Source: a virus. Taken from it: a stretch of 31,376 nucleotides of DNA. The notes beneath the pieces are model-generated. The model was not told where the DNA came from. It saw only the letters and a program-made list of their open reading frames with translations, and ran no database searches. Each line of letters opens with the position of its first letter. The first letter of the stretch is position 1. The stretch lies in the IMG/VR virus record IMGVR_UViG_3300022542_000387, positions 1 to 31,376 of that record. One strand, given 5' to 3'. The position numbers and the translations under genes are program-made. Shown in pieces: positions 1,507-20,967 of the stretch.

Positions 1507-2471
1507 CTGCCCTCTGCGATACGGTTCAATTCCTCATCGCTTAATCGCGTCATATCTTCTGTCGCGGTTTGCCTTTCCAGTTCCAGAACTTTGGCATCTT
1601 TCGGGTCCCAGTCGATTTCACCCTTACGATATATTTTTTTGTTCGCTCCGGCACCGATTTCAACGCCAGTTTGTTTTATTTGTTTCATAAATGTATGCCA
1701 AGCCTGGCGAATTGCCCTGCGGTAATTCTCATTTACTTCACTGTATCCCGTCTCGTTTAGATACTGTTCATAAGCCTTATTTACTTGTTCCTTGTTGTAA
1801 TCAAACTCCCAAGGGCCGGGGATATGCCAGGAAGTAGTTTTCGGGTACATACTAAAAACAGAAATGGCAGTTTTCTTAAATCCACTCCGGTCTGTTGGGC
1901 TCGGTTGTGTTAATTTTCGGTGTTTTTCTATTCTTTCATCAGCCAGTCCGCCTTCTCCAACAACACCCGCCTCCCAATCTTTGCCAAATTGAACAAGAGG
2001 CTTGGTCATCTTCTCTCTAAGTATTTTATTTCTCTCATCTGGTGGCAATTTCATCAGATAATCGTATTCAAGTTGACGTAACTGCTGTGAAGGAGTTATC
2101 CCCTGTCCAAAGAGGTTCTCCATTTGACCTCGCATACCTAATTGCAGTCCCATTTCACTTTGCATTTGAGGGAATTGCGGTTGTTGTGGTATTTGCGGCC
2201 AACCTGCCCCTGCCCCCATATCCGGTCCAAGCCAACTCTGTGCTGTTTGAGCTACTTGAGGCATTAGGTTCTGTAAATCTTGTTGATATGCCTGTGTCTG
2301 TTGACCAAAAAGTCCAAGATTAGCCAAGTCCTCTTGCTGCTGTTTTATTTTTCTATCTTTAAGTGCTTTATTAAAAAAGGCCTGAGCCAGAAATTCTAAC
2401 CCTCTTTGGTAGCCCTGGCCCCTTCTTTCTATACCCACTGGGGCGGGCATCATAACGAATCCTGCTGGCAT
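1503..2471 (-). CDS. Gln/Pro-rich putative internal virion (ejection-type) protein, 322 aa
   Basis: ATG at 2471 has a strong AAGGAG ten bases upstream. The N-terminal third is rich in Gln, Met and Pro (residues ~45-135, with QQPQFPQMQ-like runs); the C-terminal two thirds are charged and probably helical. No known domain is recognised. The composition and the flanking Gly/Ala/Gln-rich genes resemble the ejection-protein clusters of podoviruses, where sequence conservation is low; the assignment rests on context. Its stop overlaps the start of the next gene. Confidence 0.7.
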   Translation of the reverse strand: MPAGFVMMPAPVGIERRGQGYQRGLEFLAQAFFNKALKDRKIKQQQEDLANLGLFGQQTQAYQQDLQNLMPQVAQTAQSWLGPDMGAGAGWPQIPQQPQFPQMQSEMGLQLGMRGQMENLFGQGITPSQQLRQLEYDYLMKLPPDERNKILREKMTKPLVQFGKDWEAGVVGEGGLADERIEKHRKLTQPSPTDRSGFKKTAISVFSMYPKTTSWHIPGPWEFDYNKEQVNKAYEQYLNETGYSEVNENYRRAIRQAWHTFMKQIKQTGVEIGAGANKKIYRKGEIDWDPKDAKVLELERQTATEDMTRLSDEELNRIAEGR

Positions 2472-2472
2472 T

Positions 2473-2808
2473 TTATTTTCTCCTTAACTTCGGCAGAAAC
2501 ATTCCTGTTTTTTTTATATAATTTAGATAAGAACCATCCTGTTTAAGTATCTGTTCCTCGTTTATCGCTCTCGACAGAAAAAACGCGAAAGCAAGATATG
2601 TAACAGCAAGAGGAAGATAGAGCAAAGATAACCCAGCGATGATAAGTATTGAACCGATATATGATGGATGTCTGACATATTTATAAATCCCCTTTTTCAT
2701 AATTCGCGCGGGCATTCTTAATTGAAAGGAAAAACTCCGCTTTAACTGCCTTATGGCAATCAAACGAATAATAATACCCAGTACTAAAATTGCTGTTCCG
2801 TAAATCAT
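2473..2808 (-). CDS. Isoprenylcysteine/phospholipid methyltransferase-like membrane protein, 111 aa
   Basis: This looks like a compact member of the ICMT/PEMT integral-membrane methyltransferase family, which transfers methyl from S-adenosylmethionine to a lipid or prenylated carboxyl group. Visible signatures are the RHPSY motif at residues 46-50 (family RHPxY, cofactor-site region), hydrophobic helices at ~4-20, ~51-68 and ~68-80, and the conserved EE pair at 84-85 followed by a YLNYIKKT stretch and a basic end. Family members are usually 150-200 aa; this copy keeps the C-terminal catalytic half with only one helix before it. It starts with an ATGA overlap on the upstream virion-like gene and its stop lies just before the Shine-Dalgarno of the next, so it is fully embedded in the late operon. 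The substrate cannot be inferred. Confidence 0.78.
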   Translation of the reverse strand: MIYGTAILVLGIIIRLIAIRQLKRSFSFQLRMPARIMKKGIYKYVRHPSYIGSILIIAGLSLLYLPLAVTYLAFAFFLSRAINEEQILKQDGSYLNYIKKTGMFLPKLRRK

Positions 2809-3578
2809 ATAAGACCTGACATAATACCAGCGGCACCCATCATACCCAGAGGCCCTGCAAGTGTTTCCATTGTACCTGGTCGGTAAGCACCTTGGAAACC
2901 AACATTAGTAAAAGCCGGTGTTCCCAAAGCCGTACCCAAGAAGTTTAATGCGGGGTCTTGCCAGGGTTGCTGTGCCTGCCAGCGAGCTAAATCAAAGCCT
3001 TGTTGCTCCTGCGATATTCCTCTTTGTTGTCCCCCAAGTGCTGCCATTTGCCCGGGTACCTGGAATTGCATCGGGGCGAATTGTGCACCTAATCCCAGGG
3101 ACAGATTCCTCGCTTCCCGGCCAAGTATATTCGCCGCCCCGCTACTGCGGGCCGCCCCCACACCCCCTAATCCCGCCATAACCTGCGGGACTAATTGCTG
3201 ACCAAACATTTCCGTTGCAAATCGGCTTACGGGTTTCATTTGACTCATTATGTCAGGCAACTGCCCGCCCAACCCAAACGCCTGTTGTTGCAATGGCGAT
3301 GGGCCGACTGGCCCCAACTCCGTAGGCGGCGCTGTTCCAGGCCATGCATCGCCCATTCCGCTCGTCGAAGAAAATGCGTCCAGGTTTTGTCCTTGTCGGG
3401 CCCTTTCGAGGATCCCTCTGAATCCCCCTCCCCCTGCTCCCCCTGCAGACCCTCCCGTTCCAGTTGTGCCAATTGAAGGAGCTATTCTACTAATCAAAAG
3501 ATTAAGTAATGCTTTTTGGCTTGGCGTTAAAGCTGCTACTTGTTGAACCTTTTGTCCGGTTACTTTACCTTGTGACAT
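2805..3578 (-). CDS. Gly/Ala/Gln-rich putative internal virion (ejection) protein, 257 aa
   Basis: ATG at 3578 has GGAG about eight bases upstream. The protein contains a Gly-rich stretch (residues ~38-53), a motif around GILERARQGQ, and long Gly/Ala/Gln/Leu/Met-rich segments to the C terminus (LAGPLGMMGAAGIMSGLI), typical of membrane-active or pore-forming podoviral ejection proteins. No enzymatic motif is visible. It overlaps the end of the GNAT-like gene by 19 bases and the start of the methyltransferase-like gene by four. The role as an ejected protein is an inference from composition and neighbourhood. Confidence 0.7.
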   Translation of the reverse strand: MSQGKVTGQKVQQVAALTPSQKALLNLLISRIAPSIGTTGTGGSAGGAGGGGFRGILERARQGQNLDAFSSTSGMGDAWPGTAPPTELGPVGPSPLQQQAFGLGGQLPDIMSQMKPVSRFATEMFGQQLVPQVMAGLGGVGAARSSGAANILGREARNLSLGLGAQFAPMQFQVPGQMAALGGQQRGISQEQQGFDLARWQAQQPWQDPALNFLGTALGTPAFTNVGFQGAYRPGTMETLAGPLGMMGAAGIMSGLI

Positions 3579-4112: not shown

Positions 4113-4343
4113 TTATTTTTTGGAATTTGGGTCTTTTGGTACTAAAGTCATTTGCCCATTTGGCATATTGAATGTAATCTGGCCGTTTTGCCTGGCTTGC
4201 GTGAGAACCGAAGCAAGTGCATCGTTAACGCCTCGCCTATAGATTTTCCGCTCTACTGTTTTCCAGGCAAAAAAGTAGAGGTTAAGAACGATAGATACCA
4301 CACATATCGTTACGCCGGCGATTTTTATGATTTTATGTTTCAT
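4113..4343 (-). CDS. Small single-pass membrane protein, 76 aa
   Basis: ATG at 4343 overlaps the preceding TGA by one base (TGATG) and has GGAG about nine bases upstream. Residues ~8-27 form one hydrophobic helix with basic residues on both sides (MKHKIIK... and ...KTVERKIYRRG), so a signal-anchor topology with the soluble 48-residue tail outside the cytoplasm is likely. The tail is polar and ends in KDPNSKK. Nothing identifies it as holin or i-spanin: it has only one helix and no partner lipoprotein gene is seen. Function unknown. Confidence 0.72.
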   Translation of the reverse strand: MKHKIIKIAGVTICVVSIVLNLYFFAWKTVERKIYRRGVNDALASVLTQARQNGQITFNMPNGQMTLVPKDPNSKK

Positions 4344-5671
4344 CAGTTTATCTCCACAAAGATTACCTGGCCTACCGCTGCTGCCGCAGGTGTATAAGTT
4401 ATATAAGATGAGGTCTTGCGGTCATCTCTTTGGCCGTTTGCTGAACCCCAAGGGTCTTCTAAATCATTTGATGGCGTTCCAGTCCAAGCATGTGGATACC
4501 ATGTAGTAGACTGGTCGTAACCTGCATCCGTAGTATATCTCGTAACAAAAGTGGCATCATTGTTTTCTGCCGTCCACAGGCCGCCGGCGGAAAAAGAGCC
4601 GCCGCCGGTCACTGGAAAATCCATCCATTCGGCACTTTTAGTCAACGACAGCGCATTTGAAAGAGCTAAGCGATTATCGGGGTCTTTATCATCATCACCA
4701 CCTCCACTATATCCAGTAGGGTCGTTATCATATAATGCCATACAAATTGGCATATTGGTTTCACTTGAGGAGCAGTACAAGTGCATTATAGTACAGGTCC
4801 CATCTTCTCCTATTGTGCCCAACCAGAATGATTGCTGATAATCGGCATCACAACCCATAGTTGAAGCACCGACAGATTCGTAGCCAAACGTAGCATTTGA
4901 CCTGACAGGATACACCGCCTCATCGAGAAACTTCTGCGGGATGGTCTCAACAAGGGCATCGTTCTCAATGCTCAGCTCTTTCCAAACCCATTTACCCATT
5001 GCGTCAACAGCCTTCCCTCGCAGTATTTCAAGGACCTGACCCGTTCCGTAGTTCTTGCCGCCCAAGCGGTGATTTACTTTGGTCTTATGTACGACAGCGT
5101 ATGAACCATCAATACATAAAGGTCTCTCGTCATAAAGGATGGCCCCACCCGGTGGGTGGACCTGCCTTATCCAATCCTCCCCGTTTCTCTCAAAATACTC
5201 AATCTTTGTACCGGGATAGCGCAACGCTTCTTCGCTAAAAGGTGTTTGGTAACAGAACTTAAACTTTCGCCATCCATCACCTGTAAACCTGTGAATGAAT
5301 TTATTGCTTGCTGGTTTTCTCTTGAGGATTCTGACCCATTTCAGGGAATAATGATTTCTGCCGGCAAGCGTTTTCGTGTCCTTATACCATTGGTACTTTA
5401 CGTCAGATAAGTCAAGTTCAAGAATATTATCTTTAACAGTCGGCGTGCCCTTCACGCCTTCTTCTTCAAGAGCTATCGAATCCTCACCCCAAAATGTCAT
5501 TTTGAGATGAGACTGAAACTCATCAACCTTGCTAATATTACCTACGGAAATTGTGCGGCCATCATCAAGATAATACGCTTTTTTGCCTGCAATTCGTCTT
5601 ATCCTGGTAACACTCGCTCCATAGGATGCTGTGCAAAATAAGATGAGCAAGATAGCTATATACTTTTTCAT
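4343..5671 (-). CDS. Exported phage protein with N-terminal signal peptide, 442 aa
   Basis: The N terminus (MKKYIAILLILFCTASYG-A) is a classical Sec signal peptide with a likely cut after residue ~18. Residues ~20-250 are a mixed alpha/beta region rich in charged and aromatic residues; ~250-442 are a Gly/Ser/Asp/Thr-rich beta region starting near YPVRSNATFGY, a pattern I associate with phage appendage proteins that end in a jelly-roll-like domain. A Gly/Asp stretch (GGGDDDKDPDN) interrupts it. The last gene of the exported fibre-like set, it follows the 901-aa gene after seven bases. No enzymatic motif recognised. Confidence 0.75.
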   Translation of the reverse strand: MKKYIAILLILFCTASYGASVTRIRRIAGKKAYYLDDGRTISVGNISKVDEFQSHLKMTFWGEDSIALEEEGVKGTPTVKDNILELDLSDVKYQWYKDTKTLAGRNHYSLKWVRILKRKPASNKFIHRFTGDGWRKFKFCYQTPFSEEALRYPGTKIEYFERNGEDWIRQVHPPGGAILYDERPLCIDGSYAVVHKTKVNHRLGGKNYGTGQVLEILRGKAVDAMGKWVWKELSIENDALVETIPQKFLDEAVYPVRSNATFGYESVGASTMGCDADYQQSFWLGTIGEDGTCTIMHLYCSSSETNMPICMALYDNDPTGYSGGGDDDKDPDNRLALSNALSLTKSAEWMDFPVTGGGSFSAGGLWTAENNDATFVTRYTTDAGYDQSTTWYPHAWTGTPSNDLEDPWGSANGQRDDRKTSSYITYTPAAAAVGQVIFVEIN

Positions 5672-5678
5672 TGTTCTT

Positions 5679-8384
5679 CTAATCTTCCTCTGCGTGGAAC
5701 AACATCATAAAATTCATTTGAACAGCGGTCCCCTCTGGGTCGGCACCAAAATTAAGGTAAACCATTTTTCCAGCCGCCACCGCTGTTCCACCGTTAATAT
5801 TGGCATCTGTATCTTCAGTAGATACTCCATTAGTAGTATCTAAAACATCAATGACCGCCGAGTTTGCTAAACCTATCCAGGCATCAGCATATTTTAAGTC
5901 CAAATCCATCTCGACATCAGGGTCAACGTTACAGGAGACCTTCCATTCATCTATAATAATGCCATTGGGAAATTTGTCAGCGTGGACCTCGAAAAGAAAA
6001 ACCTCAGTATCGCTGTCATACCAAGCGCCGGGGTCAAAACTAACGGAAGCCATTGAAAGAACACTTATCGTAACTTCTCCTGCCACTTCTCCGCCCGCCC
6101 CTGCATGAATAGATATTCTGTCCTCGTCACCTCGAACATGAATCATACCCAAAGCCGAAAGAGCGGCATCGGTACTTTCAGCATTTGGTATTTCAAGAGT
6201 AGTCGCTCCACCAAAATCGTGGACGCCTGTATGAATATCACCATCGGCCTCTGCAAAGTCGGCTACATCTGCAATATGGCCTTCCAGCTCACTTTTTGAA
6301 TCGACCTCCGCCGTGGCTCCGCCTGTAATGGCAACAAGCCCAGTATAACCACTTATGTCAGCCTCTAAACCACCGTACTCATGTTCGATAGTACCCGCAT
6401 CAAAGAAGGCCGTTGCGCTGTCACCTGTAGCGGCGTCTATGGCTGTTAGTGATGAACCATCACCGGAAAAAGAACTGGCAGTTACTGCACCTCCAGATAC
6501 AACATCACCGTTTTGTCCTACCGTAAAGACTGCTCCACCCGCATCTTGGCAGATAATATAGTCTGCATTGGCCTGATTGTCGTCTACGCTGTAATCCAAG
6601 TCCAAAAGGTACATAGCATTGGCAACATCGGCATCAGAATTCCGTATTGTCAAAAATGAACCAACTGCGTCATATATCGTTGTTAAGAGCGTGTTTTCTC
6701 CTGCATTGTCGAAGTCAATAGTTGTTGTTCCATTGTTATCCGGGTCGCCAATATCATCCCATGCCGTAGAGCCTGCACTATCATCATTACCCCAAGATAG
6801 CACACCGCTTCCGTCAGTATGAAGAACTTGAAGATTATCTCCATCGTTAGCAGGCAGAGTGTAAACTGTATTGGCCGCAAGTGCCGGAACCATGAAAGAA
6901 GCGAAGTTAGAGCCATCATCATCATCTTCGAGTAGTGTTAAAACTCCGGCGGTAGTCGTGGCGTTGCCAACCGACAAATTTCCGTCAAAAGCCCATGCTG
7001 TGGTAAAGTCAAGAGCTATTGTAATATCTGCATCTGCACCTGGAAATATATCATTAGTACCACCCGTAACGGGCGCAGTGGTAACGAGGTCTTTGAGTAC
7101 AGTTATTGCAAGTGTAATATCTGCATCAGAGCCGGTCAGAATGTCATCTGTCCCCCCTGTAAGGGGTGCGGTAGTTACCAAGTCCTTTAGGACGGTTATA
7201 GCAAGCGTAAGGTCGGCATCTGCTCCAGGAAGAACATCATCAGCCCCTCCAGTTATGGGAGCGGTTGTCACAATATCTTTTAGTAAAGTCAAGGCAATAG
7301 TTACATCGCTGTCGGCCCCAACAAGAACATTGTCAGTCGCTCCTGTAATCGGTGCGGTAGTTACTATGTCCTTTGCGTAGGCAGCAGCGGCCAAATGAAC
7401 CAAGTCTATTGAGCCATCGTTGTAGTGCTCGGAATCAATGCCATTGTCGGCTATTTTCGTCTCATCAACTATATCGGCGGCAAGATGCTCGGCATCAATG
7501 GAAGCCGCGGCGTAATCAGCTGAATCCACCGTATCATCGAGAATCTCCGTCCCATCTATCGAGCCTGCCGGCAGGACTATCTCTGCCGTTCCCGTGCCGT
7601 CCGTTACAAAGGTATGGTCGGTAATATCAACCGAGCCGTAGTCTATATCCACAGCACCTACAGCATCGATAAGATTAGTCAGCACCGTACTAACTGTGAC
7701 ACCCAAACCTGTAAGAATTCCGTCGGAAGTGACTGCTCCATCTGCGCCTACCGAAAAAACGGTATTTGGTGTTGCACCCGTATCATCGACCACTTTGATG
7801 TAAGTTAAATTTGCAGGGGCATCATCTACCGACTGAATCTGAAAGATGGTAGTTGCGGCAACTACATCAGCGTCCGTGTGGTCAATCTTCAGAACAACAT
7901 GGGCGGCTTCATCAAGAGTTGAGGAGAATCCAACCTCATAGCCCGCCAAAGCTATCGTATCATCCGCAGTAGGATTCCCAATATTATTCCAAGCCGTAGC
8001 ACCACCTGAATCGGCATCGGCCTTCATATAAAATTTGTCAATAGCGGCATCATAGGCTACTACATAATCATCATTAGTTGGCAAAGTGGCGAGGTCTACA
8101 AGATACTTGACCTCATCATCATCATACCAGCATAGAGCACCATCATCCCAGTTGGCTACAGTGTTATCATATTGTAATTCACCCACCGCATCCGGCGAGG
8201 CATCTTGGTCTGTGAATGTAACAATGTTAGTGAAAACAGTATCAATATAGGCCGAAAGCCAGTTTTTACTTGAGGTTCCCAAGCCACCCTCACCATCGGC
8301 GCGAGGTACGATATTTCTCGTGGCGGCATAAACAGCCGATACCAAAAGCAAAATAATAATAGATATAACAATCTTTTTTCTCAT
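5679..8384 (-). CDS. Large exported tail-fibre-like protein with 31-aa tandem repeats, 901 aa
   Basis: The N terminus (MRKKIVISIIILLLVSAVYA-A) is a Sec signal peptide with a signal-peptidase I type A-x-A site at residues 18-20. It is followed by an LGTSSKNWLSAYIDT motif (residues ~36-50) typical of phage fibre proteins. Residues 338-461 contain four tandem 31-aa repeats of the form KDxVTTAPxTGGxDDxLxGADADxTxAxT. Much of the rest is Asp/Ala/Thr/Gly-rich beta sequence with fibre-like phrases. The last ~150 residues look like a globular beta domain, perhaps for trimerisation or receptor binding. Very acidic and almost without basic residues after the signal peptide. Three bases separate it from the upstream 229-aa exported gene. 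Confidence 0.8.
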   Translation of the reverse strand: MRKKIVISIIILLLVSAVYAATRNIVPRADGEGGLGTSSKNWLSAYIDTVFTNIVTFTDQDASPDAVGELQYDNTVANWDDGALCWYDDDEVKYLVDLATLPTNDDYVVAYDAAIDKFYMKADADSGGATAWNNIGNPTADDTIALAGYEVGFSSTLDEAAHVVLKIDHTDADVVAATTIFQIQSVDDAPANLTYIKVVDDTGATPNTVFSVGADGAVTSDGILTGLGVTVSTVLTNLIDAVGAVDIDYGSVDITDHTFVTDGTGTAEIVLPAGSIDGTEILDDTVDSADYAAASIDAEHLAADIVDETKIADNGIDSEHYNDGSIDLVHLAAAAYAKDIVTTAPITGATDNVLVGADSDVTIALTLLKDIVTTAPITGGADDVLPGADADLTLAITVLKDLVTTAPLTGGTDDILTGSDADITLAITVLKDLVTTAPVTGGTNDIFPGADADITIALDFTTAWAFDGNLSVGNATTTAGVLTLLEDDDDGSNFASFMVPALAANTVYTLPANDGDNLQVLHTDGSGVLSWGNDDSAGSTAWDDIGDPDNNGTTTIDFDNAGENTLLTTIYDAVGSFLTIRNSDADVANAMYLLDLDYSVDDNQANADYIICQDAGGAVFTVGQNGDVVSGGAVTASSFSGDGSSLTAIDAATGDSATAFFDAGTIEHEYGGLEADISGYTGLVAITGGATAEVDSKSELEGHIADVADFAEADGDIHTGVHDFGGATTLEIPNAESTDAALSALGMIHVRGDEDRISIHAGAGGEVAGEVTISVLSMASVSFDPGAWYDSDTEVFLFEVHADKFPNGIIIDEWKVSCNVDPDVEMDLDLKYADAWIGLANSAVIDVLDTTNGVSTEDTDANINGGTAVAAGKMVYLNFGADPEGTAVQMNFMMLFHAEED
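7002..7373 (-). repeat. Four 93-bp tandem repeats inside the 901-aa fibre-like gene
   Basis: Consecutive units at 7373-7281, 7280-7188, 7187-7095 and 7094-7002 each encode about 31 residues beginning KD(I/L)VTTAP. The protein repeats are closer to each other than the DNA units, so codons have drifted while the motif was kept. Confidence 0.85.
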
Positions 8385-8387
8385 TTG

Positions 8388-9077
8388 TTAGCCTCCTGTC
8401 GGCATTAGATCACCACTTGTATCGGGCACAAAATAAGCAAAGTGGGCGGGCATCAAGTCGTCATTGGTATCAAGGTCAAAATCAGCATCATTGAAACTTC
8501 CGGTGACAGGCATGGAATCACCATTACCATCAAGTTCCCAGGCGGGGGTTGTGCTTGTATCCACCTCGTAATCCGCCGTGAGAGCAAGGCCAGCAAAGGT
8601 CGGGCTGGCTCCTGTGTGAATATCTTGCGGAGTAGATAGAGTAATTGAGCCTGCCGCGTTTGTTACCGAAATTTGATTTGTAGTTCCCGTTATTGTCGCT
8701 AAAACGGGGTCTGTCGTTCCATCTCCTATCGGAATTTGACCGTTTGTGGCCACGCCCAGAACCGTTATCGCTCCCGTTCCCGAACCCAGAAGAATACCAC
8801 CATCGGTAAGACTTGTGGCCCCTGTGCCGCCGTAGGACACTGTAACCGTAGTTGCATTCCAGGTTCCAACGCTTATTGTCCCTTTCGATACCGTAAACGT
8901 GCCATCTGTTAAAACAGTGGATTCGAGAGTATCGTAATAGCCGTAAAGCCATCTCAGACTATCTGTACCGATAGTCAAGGTGCTGTCCGTTTTGGGTTTC
9001 AAATGGCTTGTGAATACATCACCGAAACAGACAGCCGCAAAAAACAGTAGGCATAAAATAACGATTGTTTTTTTCAT
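8388..9077 (-). CDS. Exported tail-fibre-like protein, 229 aa
   Basis: I choose the ATG at 9077 rather than the upstream in-frame start at 9167, because it gives a clean signal peptide (MKKTIVILCLLFFAAVCFG-D), has AAGGGA about nine bases upstream, and overlaps the preceding stop as ATGA. After the signal peptide comes a TLTIGTDSLRWLYGYYDT motif, parallel to LGTSSKNWLSAYIDT in the 901-aa protein, then SYGGTGATSLTDGGILLGSG and NGQIPIGDGTTDPV, phrases found in many phage fibre proteins. The C terminus carries repeated D-x-MP elements (DSMPVTG, DDLMPA, GDLMPTGG). Confidence 0.78.
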   Translation of the reverse strand: MKKTIVILCLLFFAAVCFGDVFTSHLKPKTDSTLTIGTDSLRWLYGYYDTLESTVLTDGTFTVSKGTISVGTWNATTVTVSYGGTGATSLTDGGILLGSGTGAITVLGVATNGQIPIGDGTTDPVLATITGTTNQISVTNAAGSITLSTPQDIHTGASPTFAGLALTADYEVDTSTTPAWELDGNGDSMPVTGSFNDADFDLDTNDDLMPAHFAYFVPDTSGDLMPTGG

Positions 9078-9400
9078 ATCGGTCGTTCCCTTCTCTGGGT
9101 AAGTACCCAGGTTCCAGTTATTTTTACCTGGTCTTCCAGATTGTCCCCAACCTGGATTCTCCGCCAAGTACCGTCAGGATAAGTACCATCCGCCTGTGGG
9201 AGAGCGTAATAATTCGCTTCACCATCAACCAAATCTATCACATAGTTCGATACTACCGTTATCTTCTCAAGTAATTCCTGCAAATACTTAACCAGCTCAA
9301 GCAAATAGTCGGCCGTCCGAACAGGGTCGCCGCTTTTCAGAGCGTCCTCATCGTAAGGTACCCGCACATCAATATCTAATTTTTCTAACTTGCTGCTCAT
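9074..9400 (-). CDS. Hypothetical virion-region protein, 108 aa
   Basis: Starts with an ATGA overlap on the stop of the 551-aa gene and ends with an ATGA overlap on the start of the exported 229-aa gene, so it is translationally coupled on both sides. Residues ~20-60 look helical and possibly coiled (ADYLLELVKYLQELLEKI); the C-terminal half is a short beta region (WRRIQVGDNLEDQV). No family recognised. Its place between a tail-hub-like gene and fibre genes fits a small connector or fibre-attachment protein (inference). Confidence 0.7.
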   Translation of the reverse strand: MSSKLEKLDIDVRVPYDEDALKSGDPVRTADYLLELVKYLQELLEKITVVSNYVIDLVDGEANYYALPQADGTYPDGTWRRIQVGDNLEDQVKITGTWVLTQRRERPI

Positions 9401-11052
9401 AAATTCGAATGTCCCGCCGGCTTCATATAAAGAACCAGGGCGTGGATTCGAGGCCGGTTCGCTTTCTCGGTATGTGAAATCTTTAACTGATGAAAGTTGG
9501 CGACTTCACCGCCCGCCCAAAAAGGAACCCAGATTTTGTCCTTGTTTGCAGTGCCGCTTAATGTGAGTGTTTTGCTTTTATAGGCGGTATCAGAATCAAT
9601 ATCGCCGGCGTCTTTGTAAAGTGACGCCAGAAATGAAGCCGTGGAATCCCGGTTTACGAAGAAGTCTATTTTTTGAAGTTTTGCCTTGCGGCCTATCTTG
9701 GTAAACGGGTTCCACCGACCCGACCTTATATCTATCTCTATCTTTCCATTGTCATCGTCCGTACCATCGTAATTGCCATCGTTCCATTTATACACTCGGC
9801 TGTTGCGGCATCCTATTAGAGTAAACGGTGATGGTGAGCCGAGGATTTCCCTCGAATCTATGTCCATCGCACTCATCAATGCGCCGTCAGCTCCGGTATA
9901 AACATCATCGGCTTTGAGCCATGTCGGGACCATCTGGCCGTTAAAGCCGCCGATGCAGTTGATGAAAAAACTCTGCTCCGATTTGTGGACTGTCCAGTTG
10001 TTCTCGATTATATTATAATCGAGTATCCTGTCGACGCTCGATGAGCTTGAATCTGCAAACGTAAGTAATAAGTGCCGTTCCTCTTTCTGATTGTAACTAA
10101 AAACAGAACGGACATAGACATCGTTAAACTCATCGAGAATGTCTCTAAGGTTCGGAATGTCCATGTCTTTTATCTTAAAGCCATCGTAAAAAACGATGTT
10201 CGTAGCACCAACGGCAGCCAGACCATCTTTTATTTCTACCCCCGAATACGGCGACCTGATAACCTCCGTCTCAGTCACCTTGTCCCACCTGAACGGAATG
10301 TCGGCATTGCCGGTGGACTTAATCCGCCACAAGGAACCTTCACCCGCACCCTGCATATAGACCGCCAAGTCTTTGCCCACGAATCCAGCGGCACATACCC
10401 TCTGCTGTGTGGGACAATCTACATAACCGCCGCCGCTTTGCGTGCCATCTACGCTCAGGACGGGGCTGTATCGAAATCGCTGCGGACACCAATCGCCGAA
10501 CTCCACGGTATCGAGAAAACATAGTCTGTCATCTTTAACGAATATGAACCGGCAAGTATCGAGATGATTAGTCTTGGAGTCTGAGCTTATCTGGTAATTA
10601 AAGGGTACAACGGCGGAACCGGCACCTTCATACTTATGTATCTGGTCGACATTATTGACCATATAACCTACGCCGAGCCAGTTGCAAAAGTGAAAGAAGT
10701 CCGTTGCCTTACCGCTAAATATATCCGCCGGGGTGTCGAGGTCGCTTGAAATGTCCGTCATTGTCTCATCTACCGGATTATAGAAGTTGCATCTTTTGGT
10801 GTCCATTATGAGAAGGTCGGGCATCCCATTTTTGAGGTATGTCTTTATTCCCTGTATAGATGTAGCGGTCTGCGCTACCGCCCCATGCTTCATCTGTGCG
10901 AACAGACTCCAGCCCCTGCGCTTTTCGAGAACGCCTTTATTGACGTGAGCGTTTATAATTGTTGGAAATCCGTCCTCTGGGGTAAGCCAGGGTTCCAGTC
11001 CAATTGACTTTGCAGTCCTCAAATTCGAGATTAAAAATGGTTGATATTGCAT
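9397..11052 (-). CDS. Tail hub / packaged-DNA stabilisation-like virion protein, 551 aa
   Basis: The N terminus (GLEPWLTPEDGFPTIINAHVNKGVLEKRRGW) matches the opening of a common podoviral virion family: a beta-propeller-like protein compared with the P22 gp10-type hub/stabilisation proteins. Repeated blades can be seen as Y-x-x-G or W-rich segments. Near the C terminus a GRWNPFTKIGRKAKLQKIDFF segment followed by LYKDAGDID is also typical of the family. It closes or extends the tail below the portal and adaptor. No signal peptide, unlike its neighbours. The start lacks a strong Shine-Dalgarno. The family call is from memory of sequence patterns, so the exact structural role is less sure than its virion nature. 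Confidence 0.72.
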   Translation of the reverse strand: MQYQPFLISNLRTAKSIGLEPWLTPEDGFPTIINAHVNKGVLEKRRGWSLFAQMKHGAVAQTATSIQGIKTYLKNGMPDLLIMDTKRCNFYNPVDETMTDISSDLDTPADIFSGKATDFFHFCNWLGVGYMVNNVDQIHKYEGAGSAVVPFNYQISSDSKTNHLDTCRFIFVKDDRLCFLDTVEFGDWCPQRFRYSPVLSVDGTQSGGGYVDCPTQQRVCAAGFVGKDLAVYMQGAGEGSLWRIKSTGNADIPFRWDKVTETEVIRSPYSGVEIKDGLAAVGATNIVFYDGFKIKDMDIPNLRDILDEFNDVYVRSVFSYNQKEERHLLLTFADSSSSSVDRILDYNIIENNWTVHKSEQSFFINCIGGFNGQMVPTWLKADDVYTGADGALMSAMDIDSREILGSPSPFTLIGCRNSRVYKWNDGNYDGTDDDNGKIEIDIRSGRWNPFTKIGRKAKLQKIDFFVNRDSTASFLASLYKDAGDIDSDTAYKSKTLTLSGTANKDKIWVPFWAGGEVANFHQLKISHTEKANRPRIHALVLYMKPAGHSNL

Positions 11053-11061
11053 GACGTATTC

Positions 11062-12510
11062 TTAATTATTAACCCTGCCTAACTCGATATAATCGTTGTC
11101 AGCTTGAACAAGAAGGATAAGAACGTCATCGAGCGAGGCGGTCCAGGACGCCGAAAGATTAAAATTGCCACTGTCCGCGATTGTGGAGGAATTAGTATTA
11201 CTGCCGCCGACGATATAGATTATCTGTCCGATTACGGGATTGTCTAAATCCGTTATCGCCGTTGCGCCAGTGTTCACAGATGTAACAAATATATTACCTT
11301 CAGATACGTCTGGCGTTGCATCATCGGCAGCAATCGCAGGAATCCATGTTGAAGTTCTTGCCGGGTCTAATCGCCTTAATTTAGCGGTTGCAGCATAACT
11401 TCCCACCGTTGTGACATGAGTGCAATTAACCTCAAGCAATTCACAACTGGCATAAAGCAAAATAGTCTTCGTAGAAGCCGTGATGTAACAACTGGACACT
11501 TCGCAAGCCAAAGCATAATCAGCCCCATCGTTTTTAATAACGACACCGTAAGTATCTGCATTTATATGACAATTGCGGATACCAACTCTATCGGCAGCAT
11601 ATACTTCTATGGCTTCGCCCGTATTTCCCTCAAAGTAACAAGAATGAATTGTCGCCTCGTAGCCCATATAAACTTGAATACCCCCACCTGCGTTATCCTC
11701 GATAGTGCAACCGTTCATATTGAAGCAAGTAGCATGACTTGTAATCACTCCCCAGGAAGTATTGTCATTTATCCAACAGCCGTACATATTAACTGAATTA
11801 GACGCATCCGGGTCGTCCCATTGCAGTCTTACGCCTGCTGAGCCGTTATTAGCAAATTGACAATTTTCAATAAGCCCCTGCCATGAAGCCGTAACTTCCA
11901 AGCCATCACCTTCACAACTATCTACCAGGACATCTTCTAAATGCCATCTATAAGCATCGTCTATGGTAATACCGTCTCCGGTATATGTTCCCTTGACGCC
12001 TTTTAATGTCAAAGAGCGGATAGTAACCTCGTTTGCCAGCGACCCTATAACCAGCATATCACAGTTCCCACCCTTTTGGATTATCGAACCGTTCCACTTA
12101 CCTGTCCCTTGAAGAGTAATTCCTCCTTGTGTGCTTGTAATTGAAAGAGCCGATGTGATTAAGTATGTACCATCTGGGAATAAAACAACGCCACCAGCAC
12201 CAGCGGCATCTATAGCTGCCTGTATCGTCGTCGTATCGTCAGTAGTACCGTCTCCAACTGCTCCGTAAGCTCTCACGTCAACCCAAGGGCTTTTAGTTTT
12301 TATATCGGTTGCATTAACATCGCCGATTTGCCAATCGACCGTAGAAGCATCAAGGTCAACACCCAAAAGCACTTCGAGCGCATCGTTATTGGCCCTTATA
12401 TCACCAGCGGCATTATTCCAAGTCTGATTATCGGCAGGCTTGTCATTGTCCCAAGCGGCCCAGCAGCAGATACTTATGAGAAGTACCAGAATAATTATGT
12501 ATCGTTTCAT
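11062..12510 (-). CDS. Tail spike with pectate-lyase-superfamily beta-helix and signal peptide, 482 aa
   Basis: ATG at 12510 is chosen over an upstream in-frame start (12528) because AGGAGAG lies eight bases before it. It gives MKRYIIILVLLISICCWA-A, a Sec signal peptide. Residues ~70-125 hold the Pectate_lyase_3 opening (VDVRAYGAVGDGTTDDTTTIQAAIDAA, then GGVVLFPDGTYLI), followed by repeated N/C/G beta-helix rungs to ~350 and a small C-terminal beta domain. Such spikes bind and often depolymerise surface polysaccharide. No catalytic residues can be assigned. A pectate-lyase-type spike normally has a virion-binding N domain; here a signal peptide and a short DNDKPADNQTWNNAAGDIRAN linker, common in phage fibre N termini, take that place. 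Confidence 0.85.
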   Translation of the reverse strand: MKRYIIILVLLISICCWAAWDNDKPADNQTWNNAAGDIRANNDALEVLLGVDLDASTVDWQIGDVNATDIKTKSPWVDVRAYGAVGDGTTDDTTTIQAAIDAAGAGGVVLFPDGTYLITSALSITSTQGGITLQGTGKWNGSIIQKGGNCDMLVIGSLANEVTIRSLTLKGVKGTYTGDGITIDDAYRWHLEDVLVDSCEGDGLEVTASWQGLIENCQFANNGSAGVRLQWDDPDASNSVNMYGCWINDNTSWGVITSHATCFNMNGCTIEDNAGGGIQVYMGYEATIHSCYFEGNTGEAIEVYAADRVGIRNCHINADTYGVVIKNDGADYALACEVSSCYITASTKTILLYASCELLEVNCTHVTTVGSYAATAKLRRLDPARTSTWIPAIAADDATPDVSEGNIFVTSVNTGATAITDLDNPVIGQIIYIVGGSNTNSSTIADSGNFNLSASWTASLDDVLILLVQADNDYIELGRVNN

Positions 12511-12520
12511 TTTTACTCTC

Positions 12521-12934
12521 CTATTCAATGTAGAGGATGACTTGAACGGTTGCAGTTTTCGAACCTACTGAGGCATTGTCCGGGGCGGCACTTGGCGTAA
12601 TTGTAGCGGTAAGCGTACTGTTTACCGGAATCGAATTGAAGTCCGCATCCTGAGTACCTTTTCCGCTTTCGCTGTCCCGCCAGTGTTTCGTATTGTCTGT
12701 AAGAGAGGCCTCCGAAAACAGCGATGTGCCGTTCGAGTTGGTAATCGCCACGGTATAAGTGATGCCATCTTCGGTGTCTGTTGTTATTATTTCTATTGCC
12801 TTTATCGTTCCCACAACATTGGCCAATGTCGGGGTCAAAGCTGCTGTCCCAGTCATCGGAAAGGTCTGGGTAGCAAACTCATATCTTGCTATCGGAAAAC
12901 GCCCATCTAAATGCCTCCGGTCTGAAGTCGCCAT
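12521..12934 (-). CDS. Hypothetical virion protein, 137 aa
   Basis: ATG at 12934 follows a good AGGAG site. The protein is mostly beta (Thr/Ile/Val alternation, e.g. TVAITNSNGTSLF, STLTATITPSAAP) and acidic, consistent with a small decoration or tail-associated beta-sandwich. No family recognised. It lies between the head-tail adaptor and the tail spike, ten bases or fewer from each neighbour. A virion role is inferred from context. Confidence 0.7.
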   Translation of the reverse strand: MATSDRRHLDGRFPIARYEFATQTFPMTGTAALTPTLANVVGTIKAIEIITTDTEDGITYTVAITNSNGTSLFSEASLTDNTKHWRDSESGKGTQDADFNSIPVNSTLTATITPSAAPDNASVGSKTATVQVILYIE

Positions 12935-12944
12935 AATTTATCTC

Positions 12945-13979
12945 CTAAAAACTTGTCTTTGTATGTCTGTTTTGATTTTGGATTCGCTGCTTGTTGGCGA
13001 TTGAGTTCATTCTAAATTCGGTCAAACTTACCGGAGCGCCGGTCAGCTCGATGACCCTGTCCTGCTCGCCCTTTGTAACCAAGAATAATATCGCCGCTCC
13101 TAAAGCTATCATCGGCCCCCATTTGACATCATCCGGCACGGCATCATCGTCTGCAAGCACCGTTGGCCTTTTACGAATGGGCGCTTTGAGCTCGTAAATG
13201 TCATCTGGCTTTGGCCGGGTGTATAATTTACCGCCGTATCTTAAAACGGCTTCGGGGGTGTTCCTGTTCTTGGGCTGGCCATCGGTGTAAGTGTCCGTTA
13301 CATTGGAGGCATCAAGGGCCGTCGTCGCCGGTGTAAAAGCGCCATCCGATTTAGTGGCTGTAATAAAGCCCATAAATGCTTCGCTCGATGCAGCTACCGA
13401 AAGGACGGCAACGGCCAGGGCAGGGGTATCGTAGCCGGTTGCGTTATCGCCCGCCGCCGTTACGGTTATCGTGCCGTCACTATCTATCTTTAACGACCAG
13501 GCCCCGTATTTGCCCGCCGGTACCGCATCGCCGGTCAAATCGACCTCGCTCGAACTCTTGGAATAAGAATCGCCGGCTATATCGTAATCGAAATCATCGT
13601 GCTTGACCTTCTTCGAATCACTGGAGCCTATGGCGATCCCGGGAGATGTAATATATTGCTCGTCCTCCGGATACTTTTCAAAGAATAATTGTTTATCGAG
13701 GTAGAGCGTAACTTCATTCCCATTGACCGTCACAGGCTCCATGATTTTAAGAACCGTCTGGGCCAGCGTGTATTCACCTGAATCGTCAACCGAAAGGGCC
13801 TGAGTAAGCCAGTCGTTAAGGTCGTCAACCTTGGCATCTTCAGGGAAATAGTTGGTGTAATAATCGTTTATTAACTTATTGACGTTGATATCGGATATAT
13901 CGGCAGTCGAGCTGCGACCGGTAAGTGATCGCCATTCTGTCCTAATCTCCGATAATTTCCAAGTATACTCGTCAGCCAT
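12945..13979 (-). CDS. Head-tail adaptor-like protein, 344 aa
   Basis: The N terminus (WKLSEIRTEWRSLTGR...INKLINDYYTNYFPED) and the C-terminal stretch (YTRPKPDDIYELKAPIRKRPTVLADDDAVPDDVKWGPMIALGAAILFL) follow the adaptor family that binds below the portal in podoviruses (SU10/T7 gp11-like adaptors): helices, an IRRP-like strand, then an LALGAA helix. Between them, residues ~140-235 are an Asp/Ser/Ala/Thr-rich insert that the core family lacks, probably an extra surface beta domain. ATG at 13979 has AAGGTGA upstream. Confidence 0.75.
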   Translation of the reverse strand: MADEYTWKLSEIRTEWRSLTGRSSTADISDINVNKLINDYYTNYFPEDAKVDDLNDWLTQALSVDDSGEYTLAQTVLKIMEPVTVNGNEVTLYLDKQLFFEKYPEDEQYITSPGIAIGSSDSKKVKHDDFDYDIAGDSYSKSSSEVDLTGDAVPAGKYGAWSLKIDSDGTITVTAAGDNATGYDTPALAVAVLSVAASSEAFMGFITATKSDGAFTPATTALDASNVTDTYTDGQPKNRNTPEAVLRYGGKLYTRPKPDDIYELKAPIRKRPTVLADDDAVPDDVKWGPMIALGAAILFLVTKGEQDRVIELTGAPVSLTEFRMNSIANKQRIQNQNRHTKTSF

Positions 13980-13995
13980 ATATCACCTTAAATCG

Positions 13996-16437
13996 TTACG
14001 GAGTTGCTTCGGCCCAAGTTCCAACCATCTCTGTTATAATCCAACCGTCAGTGTGAGCGGAAACCTTAATATAATCCCCATAGTTTTGGCCGGTTTTAGG
14101 AATAGTCATTGCCTCACCATCTGCCGGAGTAAAGCCGGAACCAACAAATTTATCTGCGTTATCAAGTTCTATCGTAAGCAAAGCACCATCGTCGGCAGCA
14201 ATACACATAATCCAGAACTCTACACCCGCCACGGTAGCGGGAAGGGTAATCGTCTGTGCATCAGCGGAGACTTGAAGGCAATAACCACAATCTGCGGTTG
14301 TTACAGCGCCGGTGGTTATGGTTTTCTTCTTGACAGTGGCCGGCAACCAAGTACCCTGAAAAGTAGCATCGCCAGTAACGGTAAGGGCAAGGTCACCGGC
14401 GGCGGTGATTATCACATCATCCGCTGCGTTAAGCTCTATATCACCGTAGGTTGAACCATCGGCGTTAAGCATAATCCCACCGTCCGTAGTCTCAAGGTTA
14501 ATGGCATCGCCATCAATTTGTCCGGTTGCGTCAACTTTGAATTGGTCGGCGGCTGCGCCGTCAAGAGTAGCAAGAAAGTCATTAGTTGTAATAGACATTC
14601 CAACCGACGCCGCTAATATCTCAAGATTATCGTCGGTTGTCTCATCGTACATAATAGAAGCATCTGCATTAGAACCAAATACAAGGCCCATCTGGTCGCT
14701 GAAAGCCATTACATCACCATCGTAGTCCGTGGTAATAGTACCAGCCGTCTCGAAGTAGTAGGTAATATCAAAACCAGTTGCAGTGCCTCCAATCTTAAAA
14801 CCTTCATCAGCCGAATTGGCATCAATAATAAAATCCGTACCATCAAAAGTTATATCAACATCTTCCGCATCGCCGAAGAAAAGGATGTCTGAATCCTGCA
14901 AACGAACATCATAGGCATTGAATATCAGCGTGTCTCCCGAGGCGTCATATACTACCGTACTTGCCTGTCTGCCGAAAATCCTGACATCGGAGGTATAAGT
15001 GGCGTTACCTATATTGAGCGTTGAAGTATCATCACTTTCGGATGGTAAGAACAAAAGCGTCTCATCGGTAGATATATCGATCGTCCAGTCTATACTATTA
15101 TCTGCTACGGCAAATTCAATCTGAGCGCCTTCGTTTAGCTTCAGGTCGCAGTCCTCGAAGAACAGCTCATTGGCACTGGCGTCAAATATCGCCCAATCGC
15201 CGGACGTTGCACCCATCATCTTTAAGTCGGTCCCGGTTGTGCCATCACCAATCTGGACGGCATCGTTGGTTGTGGTAGCAACAATTATCAAGTTATCGGT
15301 ACTCTCATCGAAATCCATAACAAAAGAATCCGAAGCGCTGCTATCTCCAAATGTAAGCATATCGTCATCACTCAATCTAATGTCATAACCATTAAGAAGG
15401 AACTCCGCCGCACTCACATCGAAAAGAGCAATCTTCGCAGCGTCCGAGCTATAAAACGCCCAGTCAAGAGCATTGGTAGACCCTATTCGCACTTGGCCCC
15501 AATTATCGGAAACGGCCTCAATAAGAACATTCGTACCATCGCCTTTGATAGTAACGTCGGCAGCACCATCATGGTCGCCTCCGATACCCAAAACGGCATT
15601 GTCCTGGAAAATGAGCATATCTTCACTTGTGTCCCACGCAACATCATAGGTGTCGTCAAATAAGACATCGCCTGCGTTATTTGTAATACCTACGCAAACA
15701 ATCGCTCCGGCCTTATCTAACGTGAAATAACCGCCCGTACCTTCAATGTCAGAACCAGTACCGGTGTTCTCAATCTCAATAGCATCGCCGGAACCAACAG
15801 ACATCGTAATCGTCAAGCCATCGCCTGTTGTATTACCGCTGTACGTTAATCCCAAAAGGGAAGCTGTGTCGTTTTCGGTATTGGTTATTTGAACAGCACC
15901 ATCAGTAGCGGTTATCGTCCTGCCTCCACCGACACTACCGTAATCATAGGCACTGTCAAGCGATACCCCACCTGCGGTATCTATCGGAAGCCAATCCGTA
16001 CCGGTAGAAAGCTGTAACTTATTAAGGGTATCGTCATAAAAAACCTTGCCTTCAGAATGTGCAGGTGCGTTGGCGGTGGTTGTCGGTGTGAACAAATATG
16101 ATTCGCTCGTCACATTCGCAAACACATCCCTTAAATACTGCGAGAGCATCTCCGGGTTAGAAGCAATTTCATAGTTAATATCAGTCGTTACATAAACTCC
16201 CAACGTTAAACTAACGACCATGAGCGAAACAGCTATCGCCACTATAAACGCCAACATCTTCTTCAGCATAAAACCCCCTTTCTTTGTGGGTTTCTTTGTG
16301 GGTTTCAATGCCGAAACTTCGTCTGCAATCTGGCTTAACTTCGTATCTTGAAGCGCGGCATTATTGAATACTTCCTGAAAGAGCTTTTGTACCTCATCTA
16401 CGGTATCGCACTCTTCTCTATATACTACTCGTCGCAT
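13996..16437 (-). CDS. Giant beta-repeat appendage protein with internal membrane segment, 813 aa
   Basis: ATG at 16437 has AAGGAG spaced six bases, so the in-frame GTG nine codons upstream is unlikely. Residues 1-56 are a soluble helical region ending in KKPTKKGG; residues ~60-83 are one hydrophobic helix (MLAFIVAIAVSLMVVSLTLG). Residues ~100-700 are Asp/Gly/Thr-rich beta repeats of about 75-80 residues with recurring phrases such as ILIFQDN, MLTFGDSS, LFFEDCDLKL, DILFFGDAED. The last ~110 residues (TADCGYCLQVSADAQTITLPAT ... GDYIKVSAHTDGWIITEM.GTW) are a C-terminal domain common on phage appendages. A second start at 16269 (MLKKMLAF) has an AAAGGGGG site four bases upstream and would begin with a signal peptide. 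Confidence 0.8.
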   Translation of the reverse strand: MRRVVYREECDTVDEVQKLFQEVFNNAALQDTKLSQIADEVSALKPTKKPTKKGGFMLKKMLAFIVAIAVSLMVVSLTLGVYVTTDINYEIASNPEMLSQYLRDVFANVTSESYLFTPTTTANAPAHSEGKVFYDDTLNKLQLSTGTDWLPIDTAGGVSLDSAYDYGSVGGGRTITATDGAVQITNTENDTASLLGLTYSGNTTGDGLTITMSVGSGDAIEIENTGTGSDIEGTGGYFTLDKAGAIVCVGITNNAGDVLFDDTYDVAWDTSEDMLIFQDNAVLGIGGDHDGAADVTIKGDGTNVLIEAVSDNWGQVRIGSTNALDWAFYSSDAAKIALFDVSAAEFLLNGYDIRLSDDDMLTFGDSSASDSFVMDFDESTDNLIIVATTTNDAVQIGDGTTGTDLKMMGATSGDWAIFDASANELFFEDCDLKLNEGAQIEFAVADNSIDWTIDISTDETLLFLPSESDDTSTLNIGNATYTSDVRIFGRQASTVVYDASGDTLIFNAYDVRLQDSDILFFGDAEDVDITFDGTDFIIDANSADEGFKIGGTATGFDITYYFETAGTITTDYDGDVMAFSDQMGLVFGSNADASIMYDETTDDNLEILAASVGMSITTNDFLATLDGAAADQFKVDATGQIDGDAINLETTDGGIMLNADGSTYGDIELNAADDVIITAAGDLALTVTGDATFQGTWLPATVKKKTITTGAVTTADCGYCLQVSADAQTITLPATVAGVEFWIMCIAADDGALLTIELDNADKFVGSGFTPADGEAMTIPKTGQNYGDYIKVSAHTDGWIITEMVGTWAEATP

Positions 16438-17745: not shown

Positions 17746-18390
17746 TTAGACAACTCTGCCGGCAGCTATGTCGCCAGTATCGCCCTTGTCTGACATCTTA
17801 TCGTGTGACTCAGCTATAAGAACCCAGACATCACTATCAGTGCTAATCGTAGCCCCGATAGTAATACCCTTAGTGCCAGACCTTGACACCTTTTCGGTTC
17901 GACAAGTCCAGACAATACTGCCTGACGCCTCAGTAACCGTCTGGCCTGGAACTGTCGGCCAGGTCGGTTCAGTAGCATTACCTGTACCGGATGTGGTACA
18001 TTCGTAAATGTAGCCGTTATGCGTTGTCGGCCGGACAATAGTACCTATTGCCGTTGCTGTTCTGGCCGTTGCCGATGTGTTAGACCAGTCGGAAACCGCG
18101 GCCTCGACTTCACCGATACCCGGCTTTGGTGACTCGATCATAACGCCGTTAATGGCGCTATCGTAAGTAGCAAAACCATCTGCCGCAGCGGTACTCGGAG
18201 TCAAAACACCGGCACCGTCATCTTTGATGCCGTATTGCCCTGAAACAGCGTTGTCGGCCAAGACTCGATAGAAGTCGTATCTTAATTCTGTACCGCCTAA
18301 AGCGGCTATGGCGTGCACTTCGTCCGGGATGAAACCCAAACCGATAATCATGGCATTGCCATCAGCTATAAATGTGTGAGAAACTTTCAT
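17746..18390 (-). CDS. Capsid decoration-like protein, 214 aa
   Basis: Directly downstream of the major capsid gene, with AAGGAAAG before ATG 18390. Residues 1-75 and ~165-214 form a beta framework (MKVSHTFIADGNAMIIGLGF; GITIGATISTDSDVWVLIAESHD). Residues ~105-163 are an inserted module of the type G-T-I-V-x-P...Y-x-C-T-T-S-G-T-G-x-x-E-P-x-W-P...V-W, a small domain common on phage virion surface proteins and thought to bind carbohydrate or stabilise the shell. Gene order and size fit a head decoration or accessory capsid protein. Confidence 0.75.
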   Translation of the reverse strand: MKVSHTFIADGNAMIIGLGFIPDEVHAIAALGGTELRYDFYRVLADNAVSGQYGIKDDGAGVLTPSTAAADGFATYDSAINGVMIESPKPGIGEVEAAVSDWSNTSATARTATAIGTIVRPTTHNGYIYECTTSGTGNATEPTWPTVPGQTVTEASGSIVWTCRTEKVSRSGTKGITIGATISTDSDVWVLIAESHDKMSDKGDTGDIAAGRVV

Positions 18391-18408: not shown

Positions 18409-19341
18409 TTAGCCGTTGGTGCACTTCAGCACGTGAATAAAAGCATCGTTAAGGATTCTGGCTACCTGCCACATCTTCCAGCCAACCGTTGCTCTTTGGT
18501 TTATCGGATCTGTAGTTCCACCCGAACCAAAGCCTTTGATAATGGCCGTGGCGTTGCCACCATTTATATCAATCACGCCATAGGCTTCTTTGCCTATGAT
18601 GGGACAAGAATAAGTACCGCTTGACACATAGCCCTGCGTTGATGTACGCCAGCGAAGATTGCCCGTAATCCCCCATTCGGCGACGTGAACGCCTCGCTGC
18701 GCAGCGTAATTGGAAGAATGCTTAAAGCCCGCCACTTTTTCGAGGTCGTCTTCGAGGTCGGTATCCGCAAAACCGATATATGACGGTCGGACGGGACTTG
18801 TACCCTGGCCGGTCCCCGCTTCTATAAGGTTGGTAATATAATCGGCGTCTTCGTCACGAAGAGTAGAATGAACCGCCATAATGTCGGTCTTATTCAGCAA
18901 CGTTGTGGTAGGAGAACCGTTTGTGCAGGTTGTACATGATGCCGATGCGCATATCGCATCACGGGTCAACTGGTCAATGGTGTTCTGCAACTGGTCGTTT
19001 TGCAGGCTTACTTCCTTGGTGATGTTCGGGTCCTCAACGGTCAAGTCCAGAACATCGCTAATTATCGCAAAATCGCCGTACTGCGAGACCTGGGCAAGCA
19101 AATCCACCTTGCTCTGCTTGTGACCGTTCGGTGTTATCCCCTCAGTCAACGGGGTTGTAGCCGCAGAGTAGCGAGCATAACGTCTCATCTTGAGGGTATT
19201 ACCACTCTTTCTGGCTATTGAAAATTTCCGGGCTTCTTCGGCGTAAATGTATTTCGGTGTTGCAGGTAGTAATAATGTTCGTTCGTAAGCCACACCTATC
19301 GCCGGGTCCACCTCGACTGTCGTTGTCATACTATCAGCCAT
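18409..19341 (-). CDS. Major capsid protein, N4-gp56 family, 310 aa
   Basis: HK97-fold major capsid protein of the N4_gp56 family. Family-like features are the N-terminal AYERTLLLPATPKYIYAEEARKFSIARKSGNTLKMRRYARYSAATTPLTEG region (~18-68), the YGDFAIISDVLDLTVEDP segment (~88-106), and the Gly/Lys/Trp-containing C-terminal end RATVGWKMWQVARILNDAFIHVLKC. At 310 aa it is slightly short for the family. It lies 20 bases after the scaffold gene and ahead of the decoration-like gene. Shine-Dalgarno AAAGGC precedes ATG 19341. Confidence 0.92.
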   Translation of the reverse strand: MADSMTTTVEVDPAIGVAYERTLLLPATPKYIYAEEARKFSIARKSGNTLKMRRYARYSAATTPLTEGITPNGHKQSKVDLLAQVSQYGDFAIISDVLDLTVEDPNITKEVSLQNDQLQNTIDQLTRDAICASASCTTCTNGSPTTTLLNKTDIMAVHSTLRDEDADYITNLIEAGTGQGTSPVRPSYIGFADTDLEDDLEKVAGFKHSSNYAAQRGVHVAEWGITGNLRWRTSTQGYVSSGTYSCPIIGKEAYGVIDINGGNATAIIKGFGSGGTTDPINQRATVGWKMWQVARILNDAFIHVLKCTNG

Positions 19342-20936: not shown

Positions 20937-20967
20937 TTCAATAATCTCATTTCCTTGCTTTCTTGTG

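Follow-up and report, generated by a model that had tools for sequence, protein, structure and literature searches.

Why should tail-region genes of a tailed phage encode proteins with Sec signal peptides? The question is raised by the IMG/VR virus record IMGVR_UViG_3300022542_000387, whose whole length of 31,376 bases was analysed here and is called the window. In the textbook view, tailed phages assemble wholly in the cytoplasm. In one paper, a lack of signal peptides even counts in favour of phage origin (PMC6199706). The window comes from an uncultured podovirus whose core (portal, capsid, and nozzle) is P22-like, and the late genes lie on the minus strand in the order terminase, portal, scaffold-like gene, major capsid protein (MCP), decoration protein, 813-amino-acid (aa) protein, 344-aa protein, tail and fibre genes, and candidate ejection proteins. 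Predicted export of the leadered tail-region proteins by Sec and signal peptidase I is well supported by comparison with related genomes, and translocation and cleavage would presumably follow in the host. Whether distal tail parts are exported by this route and virions are finished outside the cytoplasm, probably at lysis, appears to us about evenly balanced.

Four minus-strand genes of the window carry leaders, as determined from open reading frames (ORFs) and a signal-peptide rule. They encode a putatively exported 442-aa appendage-region protein located downstream of the fibres (4343..5671; leader MKKYIAILLILFCTASYG at 5618-5671), a 901-aa fibre-like protein (5679..8384; leader MRKKIVISIIILLLVSAVYA at 8325-8384), a 229-aa tail-fibre protein (8388..9077; leader MKKTIVILCLLFFAAVCFG at 9021-9077), and a 482-aa beta-helix tail spike (11062..12510; leader MKRYIIILVLLISICCWA at 12457-12510). 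The 229-aa protein matched the PHROG tail fiber family phrog_31660 (E 9.5e-6), and the spike, also aligned to a leaderless homologue, matched Pfam Beta_helix (4.7e-25), Pect-lyase_RHGA_epim (4.6e-20), and PHROG tail spike families. The 901-aa protein is repeat-rich and has the motif LGTSSKNW in common with the 229-aa family, and Pfam and PHROG searches with the 442-aa protein gave no match. The rule-based caller, which scores n-region charge, hydrophobic core, and the -3/-1 site, recognised 10/10 known leaders from E. coli as well as the four in the window. Each of the latter has a positive n-region, a hydrophobic h-region, and small residues at -1 (and -3). The coordinates and N-termini of the four products, described in the initial annotation as opening with signal peptides, were thus confirmed.

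If the start codons were misassigned, the true proteins would begin past the leaders. A Shine-Dalgarno (SD)-like run precedes the leader starts of all four genes, and no in-frame ATG, GTG, or TTG was found from the leader to the mature region of the window spike or near the leader/mature boundary of the 442-, 901-, and 229-aa genes. Relatives were collected as nine virus records with the 551-aa gene of the window (50-66% identity), and more were found through the spike N-terminus and the capsid protein. In a few of them an in-frame ATG does lie near the boundary, namely in the spikes of L008-L010 (CMGAWD, LMGAWD, FMGAWD), but these ATGs have no SD, whereas an SD does precede the leader start. 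Except for one GTG without SD, no boundary start occurs in the window spike, the nozzles, or the 229-aa family. We therefore assign next to negligible probability to misassigned starts.

Judged from alignments, the leaders evolve as signal peptides do, and not as would be expected of a peptide that binds the virion or of a hydrophobic stretch arisen by chance. Among 13 spikes, pairwise identity of the leaders was 0.11, equal to that of shuffled leaders (0.11), and that of the following 22 residues was 0.57; the hydrophobic core was preserved, and the -1 residue was A, G, or S in 13/13. It was A or G in all 22 leaders of the 229-aa (6/6), LamG (10/10), nozzle (3/3), and 108-aa (3/3) families; with the spikes, the five families give A, G, or S at -1 in 35/35. 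Leaders of smaller or closer families were somewhat more alike (identity 0.24-0.33 vs 0.13-0.21 when shuffled), and in the 229-aa family a leader was present on 4/4 clustered homologues and 6/6 listed N-termini. The leaders are regarded as signal-peptide-like because their sequence has diverged to the shuffled level while the small -1 residue is strictly kept. Some phage entry proteins have hydrophobic N-termini, and by that general precedent the present ones could be uncleaved virion-anchoring or membrane-inserting tail peptides rather than Sec signals. This is very unlikely, since the spike leaders are conserved no more than shuffled ones and yet keep A/G/S at -1, orthologues beginning at the same mature residue have no leader, and the same design recurs on unrelated proteins, including LamG proteins of an unrelated siphovirus.

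The boundary coincides with the initiator Met of leaderless homologues, so that cleavage would restore an ordinary virion N-terminus within 1-2 residues. With the slash marking the boundary, the window spike reads CWA/AWDNDKPAD and its leaderless counterpart in G008 (L011/L044) M/AWDNTKPAD; the leadered nozzle of L010 reads RA/QEYQPFLI and the leaderless window nozzle M/QYQPFLI; family F12 reads LYA/ATGDETVV in L003 and M/ADGDQTIV in G008; and the 137-aa family reads LMA/ATYDHRN in L009 and M/ATSDRRH in the window. These boundaries were read off the alignments, the automatic cleavage-offset count being distorted by Met residues that the aligner had stacked in several families. Leaderless orthologues thus begin at about the point where the mature region of leadered proteins does, and the leader is an addition to phage genes. 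The initial annotation had offered capture of the genes from secreted host proteins, with host leaders retained, as one explanation; leadered cassettes present in unrelated phages would fit it. It had to be given up as extremely unlikely: leaderless phage orthologues occupy the same positions for the spike, nozzle, and 108-aa genes, and most phage LamG homologues are leaderless (57/65 by rule; 55/65 once L134 and L138 had been corrected by hand, which raises the leadered ones from 8 to 10) and start near the first mature residue of the leadered ones. Disulphide formation was considered as a reason for export and rejected, the number of cysteines in mature leadered spikes ranging from 0 to 13 with no pattern.

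Retention of leaders in related phages, which the initial annotation proposed to check, was found in 17/18 members of a single clade of the MCP tree (support 97/92), each with leadered genes downstream of the capsid gene. The leader trait required 4 label changes on this tree vs 12.6 with shuffled labels. Only G008, which branches within the clade next to L006, departs from this: all four of its appendage-type genes are leaderless, which looks like a secondary loss of leaders, with the direction of change inferred on a midpoint root. Among genes downstream of the MCP, 58/181 were called as leadered in phages with an MCP at least 45% identical and 19/439 in those below 40%; 13 of the latter come from four clade members that fall in the lower group solely because their MCP is divergent, and their removal leaves 6/408 (1.5%). 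The leader frequency in the window clade is therefore far more than chance. The leaders are also selective, as the initial annotation had stated. Counted by family across relatives, they occurred in 229-like genes (4/4) and nozzles (3/9), and no leadered gene was found in the capsid (MCP 0/13), portal (0/10), terminase (large subunit, TerL, 0/7), adaptor (0/14), decoration (0/14), or ejection families; leaders called on 2/11 scaffold genes were discarded as artefacts of spurious upstream starts.

The absence of leaders on the non-appendage neighbours holds for the 551-, 108-, 137-, and 344-aa proteins of the window, but not for the families of the first three, which are leadered in some relatives. 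All four genes lie on the minus strand. The 108-aa gene (9074..9400) has leadered relatives and, by alignment, is fused to a fibre in L008/L010; the 137-aa gene (12521..12934) has leadered homologues in L009 and L058. The 344-aa gene (12945..13979) encodes a probable head-tail adaptor by position only: it lies where a gp4-type adaptor would, but gave no PDB or PHROG profile match.

The product of the 551-aa gene (9397..11052) matched the VP1 nozzle 8zkm_E in a profile search (E 1.7e-20). An AlphaFold2 model from 9 sequences was poor (predicted local distance difference test score, pLDDT, 50), and one from 17 sequences reached a pLDDT of 82.7. The top 28 Foldseek matches of the latter were all phage tail proteins, P22 gp10 (8eap_D, E 1.5e-15) and T7 gp12 among them, the leading matches coming from the tail complexes of Pa223, VP1, SU10, Pan3, P22, and T7 and including 9nwi_Y. 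By profile, model, and fold matches, the 551-aa protein, which has no leader in the window, is the tail nozzle with the P22 gp10/T7 gp12 fold. The nozzles of L008, L009, and L010 have MKK(L/F)-type leaders with GTG or TTG starts; the start overlaps the stop of the preceding gene by 4 nt in 3/3, and no start codon lies between the leader and the conserved mature region. The source records of these nozzles, G005, G006, and G007, respectively, have direct end repeats of about 110-125 bp, as in complete circular assemblies. Each contains one nozzle gene, which is leadered, and no leaderless copy of the nozzle or spike was found in them. A viral scan with the three leadered nozzles as query found no further leadered nozzle, and the window nozzle had 0 matches among 50,697 phage records.

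Since the sole nozzle gene is leadered in three repeat-ended records, a virion-essential protein is made with a Sec leader, and a reading as pure decoy or host-gene capture does not fit. Exclusion of superinfecting phages, decoy binding, or matrix degradation, as proposed in the initial annotation, may be an extra role but is not the whole story. In its full form, this explanation holds that the exported proteins work on the cell surface or within the matrix, by superinfection exclusion, receptor blocking, or polysaccharide degradation before lysis, and that virions are built without them. The pectate-lyase-type beta-helix of the spike and the LamG lectin domains of leadered genes are in keeping with it, and lambda Lom provides the precedent of a tail-region gene encoding an exported non-virion protein (PMC12309495). 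Against these stand the leadered nozzle, an obligate tail component encoded by the only such gene of the three contigs with terminal repeats, the absence of a leaderless spike paralogue for virions, and the leaderless orthologues at the same syntenic place in G008, which are ordinary phage tail genes. We consider action at the surface without a virion role distinctly unlikely.

The 813-aa fibre-like protein (13996..16437, minus strand) differs in design. A hydrophilic N-terminal domain of about 60 residues precedes a hydrophobic signal-anchor helix at residues 61-82 (16192-16257) and a large, putatively exported repeat domain. The membrane helix noted in the initial annotation was confirmed, as was an in-frame ATG at codon 57; the suggested dual start, with an internal SD ahead of the helix, was rejected because it is not conserved across relatives. 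Homologues keep the N-terminal domain and the helix, and the family shows a conserved cytoplasmic-type domain of 60-85 residues (M...ECDS.EEV..LF..) ahead of the helix; in L006, domain and helix are replaced by a plain 18-aa leader. Speculatively, such a protein, with one domain in the cytoplasm, a membrane helix, and a fibre domain outside, may serve as a tether that spans the membrane.

This architecture fits dual targeting or membrane tethering, in which the leader steers synthesis to the inner membrane and a useful fraction stays in the cytoplasm or on the inner face and enters virions there. Some leaders are long and anchor-like (the spike leaders of L009/L010, with W/P), and the nozzle is needed in the cytoplasm for heads to hold DNA. 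However, the strict small -1 residue and the restored mature N-terminus indicate cleavage outside, and the window has no internal starts for a leaderless isoform. On balance, we regard dual targeting as possible but rather unlikely.

Fitting to virions outside the cytoplasm, another option of the initial annotation, is the best that survives, through the sole leadered nozzle in three genomes and the N-terminus restored by cleavage; its assembly step is inferred. In the proposed route, Sec precursors of distal tail and fibre proteins would go to the inner membrane and be translocated, a step strongly supported by sequence evolution. Signal peptidase I would then cut at the A/G/S-X boundary, leaving, as the alignments support, the N-terminus that leaderless homologues have after Met. 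Mature spikes, fibres, and, in some relatives, nozzles would collect in the envelope or periplasm. Meanwhile, heads filled with DNA and equipped with portal, adaptor, and ejection proteins would form in the cytoplasm, and the two halves would unite once lysis breaches the inner membrane. Israel et al. (1967; in the reference list of PMC3741392) reportedly found that P22 tail parts add to heads in vitro, and late joining is plausible for that reason. We give slightly less than even chances to the broader proposal that tail completion, in some members including the nozzle, has shifted out of the cytoplasm by Sec secretion, trimming to ancestral N-termini, and joining to heads at or after lysis.

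Several points weigh against assembly outside the cytoplasm. The nozzle normally seals the packaged head, and P22 heads without it usually leak DNA. An exported nozzle would leave heads open until lysis, which is a weak point of the proposal; the leak would be avoided if part of the nozzle pool stayed in the cytoplasm or assembly were tethered to the membrane, and this alternative is retained. That the spikes and fibres belong to the virion is deduced from homology. The 551-, 108-, and 137-aa families are leaderless in most of the clade, and a strict all-or-none rule per genome was rejected on account of G005, in which F12 and F14 are leaderless while other genes are leadered. The spread of leaders could partly reflect shared descent of gene cassettes.

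Leaders also occur outside the window clade. With LamG as bait, 65 usable homologues were obtained, and after removal of near-duplicates, leaders were called on 19/49 of the remaining genes (150 aa or longer) where the LamG copy of the genome is leadered vs 14/342 where it is not (Fisher p 5e-11, Mann-Whitney p 1.5e-7, both optimistic because related genomes are not independent). One such genome, L142, is a long-tailed phage with an HK97-type head and Hc1, tail tube, chaperone, and tape-measure genes. The trait is therefore not tied to one tail type, and leaders in unrelated phages could stem from a host group that they share or from mobile cassettes. In this siphovirus, three leadered fibre/LamG genes lie between the head and head-closure genes (L142:4180-7849). 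A leader of about 34 residues (MNRRFVGKIMQWTLVSL..) on a gene of about 230-240 aa before LamG was observed in L130, L137, L142, L146, and L002; unlike other leaders, its sequence is conserved between different phages.

Twin-arginine (Tat) signals (MKRRxFLK...) were observed on small ORFs of 77-99 aa in relatives: L052:7891-8127 (G001), L010:1858-2106 (G007), L056:4045-4278, and L046:5614-5913 and 7185-7436. Those of L052, L010, and L046 are located between portal and scaffold. Two of the Tat-signal ORFs resemble capsid-protein pieces (RWRRYAKLEAPAMPLTDGIEP... NWKMWHATRILDDSIHVL; MCP profile matches 7.5e-8 and 0.006) and are possibly Tat-exported mini-capsid peptides.

The leaderless core is encoded on the minus strand by the genes for the head decoration protein (17746..18390; phrog_20658, E 4.5e-8), the MCP (18409..19341; phrog_1357 major head protein, E 9.3e-36), the portal (21873..23831; phrog_156, E 7.8e-44), and TerL (23801..25156; phrog_2, E 2e-19). 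Candidate ejection or internal virion proteins of 322 and 257 aa (1503..3578, minus strand), assigned from position and composition and without Sec leaders, flank a 111-aa ICMT/PEMT-like membrane methyltransferase gene (2473-2808; Pfam PF04140, 2.5e-14), which G004 has as well. A 234-aa ORF with an N-terminal membrane helix (20349-21053) lies between portal and scaffold, a place occupied in several relatives by different short genes for membrane proteins or lipoproteins. The early region encodes a DUF5131 protein (26943-27830; 2e-79) and an RNA ligase (30735-31367; 1.4e-17). Among cultured phages, the MCP has relatives that include short-tailed phages of Bacillus, about 30% identical. Profile scans of genome contigs yielded no host: the nozzle profile found no relative, and the MCP profile found one 30% match, in Fulvimarina (L048), a distant leaderless relative.

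The closest known architecture is that of P22-like short-tailed phages (gp4/gp10/gp9/gp26 tail), with which the window shares the nozzle fold, podovirus-type portal and capsid families (PHROG), and a beta-helix spike. P22 adds tail parts late to filled heads, and its tail proteins are not known to carry Sec leaders; here, leaders are found on the spike, fibres, and, in some genomes (L008-L010), the nozzle. In filamentous phages, virion proteins (M13/f1 pIII and pVIII) have cleaved Sec leaders and leave the cytoplasm before assembly, as is proposed here for distal tail parts. There is, however, no sequence or structure relation, and filamentous virions, which lack a head, portal, and nozzle, leave the cell by extrusion rather than lysis; inovirus-type membrane assembly uses extrusion machinery and a leadered coat protein, whereas the window phage has capsid, portal, and terminase genes, all leaderless. 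The fOg44 lysin, T4 RI, and lambda Lom are likewise phage-encoded and use the host Sec route, but they are not virion parts, whereas it is the tail module that is leadered here. Environmental phages also have leaderless LamG/fibre cassettes, which share the LamG domain and nearly the same first mature residue; 55-57/65 homologues lack the leader, and the leadered copies accompany other leadered genes. The signal peptides of extracellular contractile injection system cargo were rejected as a precedent, being cytoplasmic loading tags. In the open-access papers searched, Sec leaders on virion tail proteins were not reported for any tailed phage.

The finding is thus a known tail module in a new form, with a possible new assembly route. 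If that route exists, these phages would use a split-compartment route, with a second compartment for tail assembly, that has not been described for tailed phages. Their receptor-binding proteins would be exposed to periplasmic chaperones and to the cell's own receptors before lysis. Annotation and expression of such proteins would also be affected, since many would be annotated as proteins that bacteria secrete.

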